Shown piece by piece: positions 1,716 through 31,019 of a stretch of 33,946 bases of DNA. The notes under the pieces are model-generated. The model was not told the DNA's origin. It did not search any database and saw nothing but the letters and a program-made list of their open reading frames with translations. Every line of letters starts with the position of its first letter. Position 1 is the first letter of the stretch. Location of the stretch: the NCBI GenBank assembly GCA_035454605.1, contig DATIGQ010000100.1, positions 1 through 33,946 of the forward strand. The letters are read 5' to 3'. The stretch comes from Terriglobales bacterium (GTDB taxonomy: Bacteria; Acidobacteriota; Terriglobia; Terriglobales; Acidobacteriaceae). The translations under genes were made by a program, and so were the position numbers.

Positions 1716-2186
1716 ATGCTGCGCGACCGCAGCCTCATCCCGCTTTCCCGCCAGCATCAGCACGCGCTGGCCATGTGCGTGCTCATCCGCCGCGCCCTCA
1801 GTTCCGGCAAAGCCAGCCTGGAAAAGTGGCGCGGCGAAATGCGCGAGGCGTTCGCGGAAGAAATCGGCGTCCACTTCGCGGCCGAGGAAGAAGTGCTGTT
1901 CCCGGAGGCGCGCAATTTCCCCGCCCTGGCGCCCCTGGTCGACGACCTGCTTCGCGACCATGCGGCGCTGCGCGATTGCTTCCGGCGCGCGGAAACCGGC
2001 ACGCTCGACACCGAGGGTTTGGCGGATTTCGTCCGCCTGCTGGACCAGCACATCCGCAAAGAGGAGCGCCAGCTCTTCGAACAGTTGCAGAAGCTGGTCC
2101 CGGCCAACCGTTTGGAAGAACTGGGACGCAGCATGCAGAAGCGGTTGGGGAGCGCTTCCGGTCCAGCGTGCAAGATCAACGACTAG
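1716..2186 (+). CDS. Hemerythrin HHE domain protein
   Basis: Cytoplasmic four-helix-bundle protein expected to hold a non-haem di-iron centre; relatives bind oxygen or sense or repair NO and oxidative damage. The ligand pattern of the HHE family is visible in 156 aa: His16 in SRQHQHAL, HFAAEE (His53, Glu57), RDHAAL (His82) and HIRKEE (His112, Glu116). The start has no ribosome-binding site but sits 9 bases after a TAGAAT box, which favours this ATG and a leaderless message. The gene is monocistronic, divergent from the 61-aa ORF and convergent with malQ. Its TAG stop is itself part of the heptamer repeat array that follows. It differs from the YtfE/RIC repair proteins, which carry an extra N-terminal domain that is absent here. 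Confidence 0.85.
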   Translation: MLRDRSLIPLSRQHQHALAMCVLIRRALSSGKASLEKWRGEMREAFAEEIGVHFAAEEEVLFPEARNFPALAPLVDDLLRDHAALRDCFRRAETGTLDTEGLADFVRLLDQHIRKEERQLFEQLQKLVPANRLEELGRSMQKRLGSASGPACKIND

Positions 2187-2298
2187 CTTCTAGCTACTGC
2201 CTATTGGCTTCGCCTTGCGGTATCCGCTATCAGCTTTCCGCTTTGCGCTTTCCGTGAGAGCGCCCTAACTGGGTACTGGCAACTCGGTACTCGGTAGT
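2183..2298. repeat. Degenerate 7-base-period array filling the intergenic gap
   Basis: From 2183 to 2252 the sequence divides into ten in-phase heptads: CTAGCTT, CTAGCTA, CTGCCTA, TTGGCTT, CGCCTTG, CGGTATC, CGCTATC, AGCTTTC, CGCTTTG, CGCTTTC. A second set at 2271-2298 reads GGGTACT, GGCAACT, CGGTACT, CGGTAGT. The stop codon of the hemerythrin gene (2184-2186) lies inside the first set and that of malQ (2298-2300) touches the end of the second. It separates two convergent genes. Confidence 0.75.
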
Positions 2299-3842
2299 CA
2301 GGCGCAATACTCTTCTGACGGCTGAGACGCTGCCGGGACCGAAGTCCCTGGGTCACGGTCCGTCACTTCCGCGAGCATCGCGAGGCGCTCGGCGATGTGT
2401 GGCGCGAGCGCATCCGGTGGGAAGCGCCAGGTCCAGTTGCCGTCAGGGCGGCTGGGGACGTTCATGCGGCCTTCGCTGCCCAAGCCCAGCGCATCCTGCA
2501 GCGGGAAGATGGCGAGCACGGCGGGCGAAGCCAGGGCGCCGCGGATGAAAGCCCAGTTCATGCCTTCGGGGTCGTGGCCGAAATAGGCCTGGGCGTGGCG
2601 GCGCTCGGCGTCGCTCGCGCCCGACTCCCACCAGCCGCGCACGGTGTCGTTGTCGTGCGTGCCGGTGTAGACCGCGCAGTTGGTTTCGTAGCGATGGGGC
2701 AGATAGATGTGGGCGCCGGGGTCGCCGAAGGCGAACTGCAGCACTTTCATCCCCGGGATGTTCCAGCGGCAGCGCAGCGCATGCACCTCAGGGGTGATGT
2801 AACCCAGGTCCTCGGCGATGAGCGGCAACTCGCCCAGCGCGCCGCTCAGGGCGCGGAACAGGTCGTCGCCGGGGCCCGGCTGCCAGCGTCCGTTCACGGC
2901 GGTCGGTTCGCCGGCGGGGATCTCCCAGTACTGCTCGAAGCCGCGAAAGTGGTCGAGCCGCAGAATGTCGCAGGTGCGCAGGGCGGCGCGCACGCGCTCG
3001 ATCCACCAGTCGTAGCCGCGCGCGGCCAGCGCGTCCCAACGATAGAGCGGGTCGCCCCAGCGCTGCCCGGTCTTGCTGAACAGGTCGGGGGGGACGCCCG
3101 CGACCACGTAGGGCTCCAGATCGTCCTCGCGCAGGGTGAAGATTTCGCGATGGGCCCAGACGTCGGCCGAGTCGCAACTCACGAAGATGGCGACGTCGCC
3201 CACCAGGCGGATGCCGCGCCGCCGGGCCTCGCTGTGCAGCGCGTTCCACTGCTCGAAAAAGAAGAACTGGATGGCGCGCACGATCCCCATGTCTTCGGCA
3301 AGATATTCACGGGCGCGGGCAAGAGCCGCCGGCTCGCGGTGAGCGATGGCGGACGGCCAGCGGTTCCATGCCTGCTCGCCGTGCCGGGAACGCAAGGCGT
3401 CGTAGAGGGCGAAATCCTCGAGCCACCCCGCGCTTTCGCGGCGGAACCGTTCGTAGCGTTCGCGCTGCGCTCCCCTGGCAGTGGCAAGAAAGTTGCGCGC
3501 GGCTTCGCGCAGTAGCGGCAGCTTGCGACGGCGCACGGAGGAATAGTCGACGGAAGCCGAAGGCTCGGGCAGATCGCGCAGGAGCGCGGGAGCGAGCCAG
3601 CCACGCTCCGCCAGTCTCTCCAGGCTGATGAGCAGCGGATTGCCGGCGAAGGCCGAGGTAGCCGAGTAAGGCGAGTTGCCCAGGCCGGTGGGCGCCAGTG
3701 GCAGCACCTGCCACAGGCGCTGGCGTGCGGCGGAGAGGAAGTCCAGGAACTGGTACGCCGCCGGGCCCAAGTCTCCGATGCCGCCCCGCGAGGGCAGCGA
3801 CGTCGGATGCAACAGGATCCCGCTGGCGCGAGTGAAGGGCAT
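2298..3842 (-). CDS. malQ: 4-alpha-glucanotransferase (amylomaltase)
   Basis: GH77 enzyme that transfers alpha-1,4-glucan segments between maltodextrins, serving glycogen or maltose breakdown in the cytoplasm. The 514 aa match bacterial amylomaltases of the short type. It opens with the family signature SGILLHPTSLPSRGGIGDLG. The three catalytic acids are visible: Asp297 in ILRLDHFRGF (nucleophile), Glu344 in LIAEDLG (acid/base) and Asp397 in GTHDNDT. GDVAIFVSCDSADVWAH is a further conserved block. It stands alone on the minus strand between the hemerythrin array and ppiD. A TTGACA box with a poor -10 lies just upstream, and no ribosome-binding site is evident. Confidence 0.96.
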   Translation of the reverse strand: MPFTRASGILLHPTSLPSRGGIGDLGPAAYQFLDFLSAARQRLWQVLPLAPTGLGNSPYSATSAFAGNPLLISLERLAERGWLAPALLRDLPEPSASVDYSSVRRRKLPLLREAARNFLATARGAQRERYERFRRESAGWLEDFALYDALRSRHGEQAWNRWPSAIAHREPAALARAREYLAEDMGIVRAIQFFFFEQWNALHSEARRRGIRLVGDVAIFVSCDSADVWAHREIFTLREDDLEPYVVAGVPPDLFSKTGQRWGDPLYRWDALAARGYDWWIERVRAALRTCDILRLDHFRGFEQYWEIPAGEPTAVNGRWQPGPGDDLFRALSGALGELPLIAEDLGYITPEVHALRCRWNIPGMKVLQFAFGDPGAHIYLPHRYETNCAVYTGTHDNDTVRGWWESGASDAERRHAQAYFGHDPEGMNWAFIRGALASPAVLAIFPLQDALGLGSEGRMNVPSRPDGNWTWRFPPDALAPHIAERLAMLAEVTDRDPGTSVPAASQPSEEYCA

Positions 3843-6626: not shown

Positions 6627-6689
6627 GGCTATTGGCTTTTGGCTGTTGGCTCTTGGCCACGAGCTACTAGCTAGCAGCTAGAGGCTCAG
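6627..6689. repeat. Degenerate 7-base-period array abutting a stop codon
   Basis: Nine in-phase heptads can be read: GGCTATT, GGCTTTT, GGCTGTT, GGCTCTT, GGCCACG, AGCTACT, AGCTAGC, AGCTAGA, GGCTCAG. The array ends exactly at the base before the stop codon of the zinc-ribbon gene (6690-6692, minus strand). It looks like the same class as the array at 2183-2298 in reverse orientation. Confidence 0.75.
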
Positions 6690-7025
6690 TTACAAGTTGC
6701 CGGGGACGAATTCTTCGATCACCAGGCGGGAAACGGCGCGGCAATCGGCGCACAACAGCAGCGTCTCGTTCCCGTCGGCGCTGAGGATGGCTACTCTCAA
6801 GCTCTGACAGGCGGCGCAGGCAGTGGTGGGCTCGCCGGATTCGGGCTCGGCGGCCTGGATGGAGGTCTCGCGGTCGAAGCGCCCGGTCTTCTGGGTGTTG
6901 ATCTCGAAGGTGGAGCGGCAGTCGGCGCAGACGTGGTTGAAGCAGCACTTGGGCTCGCAGGAGTACACGATCTCCGCGCCCTGACAGTGCGGGCAACGGA
7001 TGAGGTCTTTCAACGTCTGGGCCAC
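6690..7025 (-). CDS. Double zinc-ribbon protein of unknown function
   Basis: Small soluble 111-aa protein with two zinc-ribbon modules. The first uses CPHC (Cys11, Cys14) with CADC (Cys33, Cys36) and has additional Cys23, Cys27 and Cys28 between them. The second uses CAAC (Cys70, Cys73) and CADC (Cys92, Cys95). No enzyme domain or membrane segment is present and no specific family is recognised; nucleic-acid or protein binding is the usual role of such ribbons. Translation starts at GTG 7025, placed only 6 bases after a TAGAAT box, so the message is probably leaderless. It is divergent from the P450 gene and lies upstream of kdsC, separated by a heptamer array. Confidence 0.75.
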   Translation of the reverse strand: MAQTLKDLIRCPHCQGAEIVYSCEPKCCFNHVCADCRSTFEINTQKTGRFDRETSIQAAEPESGEPTTACAACQSLRVAILSADGNETLLLCADCRAVSRLVIEEFVPGNL

Positions 7026-14352: not shown

Positions 14353-14428
14353 TGGTGGACCTGGTCGGGATCGAACCGACGACCTCTTCCATGCCATGGA
14401 AGCGCGCTCCCAGCTGCGCCACAGGCCC
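14353..14428 (-). tRNA. tRNA-Ala (anticodon GGC), CCA encoded
   Basis: The minus strand folds as a complete cloverleaf of 76 nt. The acceptor GGGCCTG pairs with CAGGTCC and contains the G3-U70 wobble pair that identifies tRNA-Ala. The D arm is GCGC...GCGC, the anticodon stem CTTCC/GGAAG holds the loop ATGGCAT (T33, anticodon GGC), the variable loop is AGGTC, and the T arm GTCGG/CCGAC carries TTCGATC. The terminal ACCA is encoded in the DNA. It reads alanine GCC (and GCT) codons. Confidence 0.96.
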
Positions 14429-30881: not shown

Positions 30882-30920
30882 GGACGAGAGAGACTACCAC
30901 GACATTCTCGAGGGATTCGC

Positions 30921-31019
30921 GAATTGTTGAATTGGGGAATTGCCGAACTGAAACCTGCGAATGCGGCCGAATCAGGCGCAGTTCAATTCGGCACTTCGAC
31001 AATTCGCAAATTCGACAAT
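30921..31019. repeat. Facing 8-base-period arrays between mutM and the ROK kinase
   Basis: Left arm in octamers: GAATTGTT, GAATTGGG, GAATTGCC, GAACTGAA (30921-30952). Right arm: CAATTCGG, CACTTCGA, CAATTCGC, AAATTCGA and CAATC (30984-31019 or so). The right arm is the reverse complement of the left type, so the whole forms an imperfect hairpin with about 31 bases between the arms. The array touches the mutM stop codon (31019-31021). Confidence 0.75.

Follow-up and report, generated by a model that had tools for sequence, protein, structure and literature searches.

Heterogeneous heptamer arrays have been described by Rehm et al. (2015; PMC4692102), with the unit GGGANTN in Xanthomonas and GGGGA(C/T)T in Nostoc. 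Each Xanthomonas genome carries 183-186 of these arrays, which are mainly intergenic, lie near the 3' end of the upstream ORF, are few between divergent genes, form about 70 convergent inverted pairs and have free positions inside the unit (PMC4692102). One G-rich unit is used per genome, and the formation of G-quadruplexes has been proposed (PMC4692102). The TAACTGA direct repeats of Beggiatoaceae, cyanobacteria and Bacteroidetes are also intergenic and beside genes, with hundreds per genome in some cases (MacGregor, 2015; PMC4679880). They consist of one fixed heptamer, with related heptamers rarely repeated, and are located mainly just upstream of start codons, where a translational role has been proposed; the same paper relays a proposal of slippage for units of 7 nt. 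Cyanobacterial STRR heptamers and long heptameric SSRs, as they are presented in papers that cite the original work (Mrazek et al., 2007, cited in PMC4679880 and PMC4692102), have a period of 7 and a proposed origin by polymerase slippage. REPs are palindromes of 20-40 bp with a tagged tetranucleotide (PMC3733652).

Here we analyze a stretch of 33,946 nucleotides from a Terriglobales bacterium (the window), together with the rest of its genome and related genomes. The degenerate arrays that we find share with those of Xanthomonas and Nostoc tandem units of exactly 7 nt, dispersed intergenic occurrence and a position close to an ORF (downstream on the coding or upstream on the non-coding strand), but they are built from many unrelated units without G-tracts, are far more degenerate, and are accompanied by an octad class. 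Once the G-tracts are set aside, their anatomy matches the one published by Rehm et al. With the TAACTGA repeats they have in common that they are intergenic heptamer direct repeats by genes, and differ from them in that those have a fixed unit and lie mostly on the start-codon side. STRRs and SSRs, again as described in the citing papers, are defined by near-exact copies, which the lag-7 identities of our arrays A and B (Table 1) do not reach; the period of 7 and the proposed origin by slippage are shared. REP and BIME elements are likewise dispersed and extragenic with some inverted pairs, whereas the arrays are periodic and lack a fixed palindrome. Because G-tracts and exact repeats are both missing, we call the arrays a sequence-diverse form of heptameric intergenic repeats, and neither STRRs nor quadruplex repeats. 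The kinship to heptameric repeats such as the STRRs, with drifting sequence, that the initial annotation of the window had suggested is supported. We found no earlier description of such heptads in Acidobacteriota in the open-access literature.

The gap between the hemerythrin gene and malQ

Over positions 2183-2301, identity at lag 7 is 0.562, a value reached by none of 5000 dinucleotide shuffles (mean 0.262, sd 0.042, max 0.429); the highest value at any lag from 4 to 20 across 2000 shuffles was 0.443. Lags 14 and 21 are raised too (0.47 and 0.40), and adjacent lags are not. The periodicity of this gap is confirmed as genuine, with a degenerate rather than strict phase. The initial annotation had seen strict heptads filling the whole gap; the period stands, but two of the ten units of array A (CGCCTTG and CGGTATC) are a poor fit, and the arrays leave 13 bases of the gap uncovered. 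TRF recovers no more than 32 bases of array A, its core, and 15 of array B, both with low scores. Pfam bears out the earlier assignment of the two flanking genes (Table 1), and their stop codons are tied to the arrays as first described: the convergent gap proper is 2187-2297, and both stops lie inside arrays, the TAG of the hemerythrin gene in the first heptad and that of malQ (TCA on the + strand, 2298-2300) at the end of array B. The region 2000-2500 contains no intrinsic terminator-like site.

Table 1. Genes and arrays of the window discussed in the text
Feature	Positions	Strand	Description
Hemerythrin HHE-domain gene	1716-2186	+	ORF list, gene call and Pfam PF01814 (E 4e-16); stop TAG 2184-2186 inside first heptad
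Heptad array A	2183-2254	.	TAGCTNC-type units drifting to GCTTTCC-type; lag-7 identity 0.66; TRF core 2223-2254, TCCGCTT
Spacer, 13 nt	2255-2267	.	5' part forms an 8-bp hairpin with the end of array A, without U-tract
Heptad array B	2268-2301	.	GGTACTC/G units (CGAGTAC outward from malQ); lag-7 identity 0.74; covers malQ stop
malQ, 4-alpha-glucanotransferase	2298-3842	-	Pfam PF02446 (E 2e-173)
Second heptad array	6627-6686	.	GCTNTTG units, switching midway to TAGCT units; 3 nt from stop of - strand gene 6690-7025
Octad array	30913-30950	.	GAATTGNN
Octad array	30984-31019	.	CAATTCGN; inverted relative to 30913-30950, same gap

The window holds a second heptad array and two octad arrays (Table 1); the gap orthologous to that of the octad arrays in the only other genome of the genus that we found, G297, has octads too, of different sequence. 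When all gaps of the window are pooled, lag 7 is not raised (z 0.1), probably because heptad arrays occupy just 2 of its 25 gaps, so that the signal sits in individual gaps. At the Rfam gathering score, the sole match in the window is a tRNA at 14356-14428, and the arrays match no family. The assembly to which the window belongs has 222 contigs and 3.29 Mb; by malQ, its relatives are Acidobacteriota, mainly metagenome assemblies of Terriglobia/Acidobacteriaceae. Two of its contigs (C14 and C15) measure 39,877 bases each and differ over their first 20 kb; they may be one contig that was duplicated in assembly or entered once for each strand.

Abundance, units and placement of the arrays

Arrays were identified with a maximal-segment detector, and gene borders were taken from a codon-usage gene caller written for this analysis rather than from standard annotation. 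Unbiased densities come from contigs C1-C20 of the window's genome and from G297 (malQ 86% identical), of which about one third (1.14 Mb) was sampled; a second batch of contigs, picked by GCT-pattern matches, was left out of these densities. The initial annotation had proposed to look for an excess of lag 7 in intergenic sequence genome-wide, and this excess is found: z is 8.7, 5.0 and 8.4 at lags 7, 14 and 21 in the 20 unselected contigs, and 11.4, 8.9 and 7.8 in G297. In the intergenic sequence of both genomes, lag 7 stands well above lags 5, 6 and 8-11.

In the 20 contigs, the 35 kb between genes hold 33 heptad arrays, where shuffled sequence gives 0.6; coding sequence, which amounts to 233 kb, is nearly free of them (4 arrays). 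The sampled part of G297 has 155 heptad arrays (2.0 expected) and about 50 octad arrays (3 expected), and extrapolation gives roughly 430 heptad arrays per genome. A control of 50 kb from E. coli K-12, 7 kb of it intergenic, had none. The pattern GCTN4GCTN4GCTN4GCT has 139 matches in the window's genome, where its reversal, the control, has 17; many other Acidobacteriota families show tens to hundreds of matches, and stretches from other genomes have arrays built of other unit types. The gap between the hemerythrin gene and malQ is one of several hundred arrays just outside genes, not a one-off.

Recurring heptads are GCTGANT, GCTNCTA, GCTNTTG, GCTTTCC, GCTTATC, CAGTNNC and GAGAACT, and the octad units are CAATTCGN and TTCAATGA. 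No GGG tract is present in units such as GCTGANT, CAGTNNC and GCTTATC, and TAACTGA is absent among the units found. The free position is truly free in some units, with 9-17 occurrences of each base in GCTGANT and 11-17 in GCTNCTA next to conserved neighbours, and is restricted to C or T in CAGTGGY. Over all arrays, heterogeneity between columns exceeds that of a slippage simulation modestly (6.54 vs 5.84, p = 0.003). The lag-7 match of the arrays is about 60-85%, and most would escape an SSR search. Distant arrays have a vocabulary in common: an exact 14-mer is shared with a distant array by 125 of 157 arrays in G297, and by 2 of 157 control intergenic pieces. Few of the non-local matches between arrays (45 of 1116, not inspected one by one) run at least 15 bp beyond the array.

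In G297, counting gaps of 150 bp or more, 26 arrays are found no more than 10 nt away from a stop codon (4.9 expected) and 13 equally close to a start codon (5.0 expected). The majority of stop-adjacent arrays start a few nt past the stop. Array density in G297 is highest in convergent gaps (1.39 per kb) and lowest in divergent gaps (0.65 per kb). Among arrays of G297 and of the window's genome, TAA makes up 34 of 91 adjoining stop codons (146 of 812 genes) and TGA 20 of 91 (329 of 812), by our own gene caller and with confounders uncontrolled.

The unit strand points outward from the nearest gene edge in 85 of 117 cases in G297 (null 58.9±7.2), in 49 of 72 in the window's genome (null 35.9±5.8), and in 31 of 41 octad arrays. 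This outward polarity is a tendency of about 70% and no rule. The heptad counts come from a k-mer leave-one-out test, used because a simple count of CAG and AGC, which gave no significant polarity overall, is too blunt when TAGCT units are palindromic. Models in which polarity follows transcript sense (40 of 117 in G297) or the plus strand perform at or below the null.

Turnover in orthologous gaps

Comparison of 154 orthologous gaps between the window's genome and G297 finds an array in both for 23, in G297 only for 11, in the window's genome only for 5, and in neither for 115. Among the 115 gap pairs in which both gaps measure at least 40 bp, these 23 shared-array pairs compare with 8.3±2.0 in a length-stratified null (max 17 in 5000). 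In 10 of the 23, the two arrays are no more alike than random pairs of arrays, with units replaced outright, e.g. GCTGANT vs GCTCTTG at L124:1003 and GAGTNGC vs CAGTGGT at L124:15706. Place and period thus persist while the letters turn over, in agreement with the earlier suggestion that the period stays constant while the sequence changes. At L112:6892 and L127:3612, orthologous arrays align base by base, which argues against an assembly artefact. At L095:7311, they differ by exactly one 7-bp unit, the sole clean single-unit indel seen, most other pairs being too diverged to align.

The malQ gap of G297 has TAG-bearing heptads directly after the hemerythrin stop, as in the window, and in its other half a GGGCTGAAGCCC hairpin with A7 in place of array B. 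In more distant relatives (L047 2928-3013, L046, L052, L059 and L084), GAGAACT or CTGGCAA heptads adjoin malQ, several of them at its start codon. At L095:7560-7706 and in its G297 ortholog, an ordinary hairpin follows the array, its stem kept through several paired changes (GAGATGAGAGCC/GGCTCTCATCTC vs GGAGTTGAAAGCC/GGCTTTCAACTCC).

Origin and possible roles of the arrays

Taken together, the gap belongs to a genome-wide class of short degenerate heptad arrays, with a smaller octad class, directly outside genes; these arrays probably grow in steps of 7 nt, turn over their units and are retained. Arrays would gain and lose whole units by replication slippage, a growth step suggested by the 7-nt period, by the one-unit indel and by published work. 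They would also exchange units or converge on a common set, as the shared vocabulary suggests, and would be retained next to gene ends, chiefly just past stop codons, while the letters turn over. What counts for retention may be the period, or just the room available next to genes, and not the sequence; part of the pattern could come from such room, in which an array damages no reading frame and no promoter. The initial annotation had proposed slippage growth followed by mutation, and the unit indel agrees with this. Slippage alone falls short, however, since it predicts neither a vocabulary shared between distant arrays nor a polarity, and both are observed.

The arrays may instead act at transcript 3' ends, as a repeated 7-nt ligand for an RNA-binding factor (a cold-shock or S1-like protein, Rho or a nuclease) that sets RNA 3' ends or stability. 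We regard this as rather unlikely. In B. subtilis, CspB is able to bind direct repeats of heptamers, with a single protein on each heptamer (MacGregor, 2015; PMC4679880), and such a ligand would fit with the strong preference for starts close to stop codons, the conserved presence of arrays despite unit replacement and the low density in divergent gaps. Divergent gaps nevertheless hold arrays, start codons are abutted by them as well, and polarity tracks the gene edge and not the transcript. Moreover, intrinsic terminator-like sites and hairpins are neither enriched nor depleted at array-bearing 3' ends compared with others, and the sense strand past the stop has no rut-like composition (C 0.269, G 0.273). 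Of the 3'-end or termination element raised by the initial annotation, the position at gene 3' ends has strong support, but a role in termination or as a replacement of terminators is unsupported, given the absent U-tract, the unchanged hairpin content and the lack of a C>G bias.

A pattern search picks up inverted pairs of arrays in 41 of 60 Acidobacteriota genomes. They raise the question whether the arrays form the arms of long stem-loops or cruciforms, in which a spacer separates an array from its reverse complement; template switching or RNA pairing would then account for the growth or maintenance of the arms. The orientation of these pairs is lineage-specific, with about 103 CAG-left and 3 CTG-left matches in the window's family and 49 and 254, respectively, in the family of another genome, G029; long array hairpins exist in individual gaps (e.g. 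L115:16234 and L127:3612), and array-bearing tandem gaps fold somewhat better than others (24% vs 11% with z < -2, p = 0.003). Convergent array gaps, on the other hand, fold no better than other gaps, the - strand of the hemerythrin/malQ gap folds like its shuffles, and single arrays in the window's genus have no specific complementary partner in the gap (mean 15.8 vs 14.7, Wilcoxon p = 0.6), making stem-loop arms an improbable explanation. In G029 itself (family f25), there are hundreds of pattern matches to near-perfect stem-loops with CTGAGTN heptad arms, in which the variable bases are apparently mirrored (e.g. C11:24648-24713).

An origin of the arrays as relics of a mobile element that carried heptads in its inverted ends and inserted beside genes is very improbable: no target duplications were seen, beyond the common units each array is unique, and few matches extend past the arrays, even if outward polarity is equivalent to inward-facing inverted ends, dispersed copies have units in common, and some orthologous sites have an array in one species and none in the other. 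Chance, or the low-complexity composition of a single high-GC gap, might have been suspected from the degeneracy of individual units and the low scores of standard TRF, but is refuted by the shuffles of the gap and by the array count in G297.

The preferred reading, a class of degenerate arrays that grow in 7-nt steps and are retained at gene edges, bears on how heptameric repeats are viewed. Exact-repeat searches miss such arrays, so that heptads have passed for peculiarities of a handful of species, each with a single motif that was taken as the explanation, e.g. through G-quadruplexes. The same placement and polarity with unrelated units separates period from sequence, so that it becomes testable why intergenic repeats favour 7 nt. 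The conserved presence of arrays with replaced units offers a natural setting in which slippage and selection for period can be told apart. A bolder and, in our judgement, unlikely extension is that gene edges in distant phyla (Acidobacteriota in this work, Xanthomonas and Nostoc in published studies) are marked by a period-7 element that is indifferent to sequence. Step, place and outward polarity would be conserved and the letters free, and the element would be read by a machine that binds or advances once per 7 nt. If true, this would be a cis element defined by period alone.
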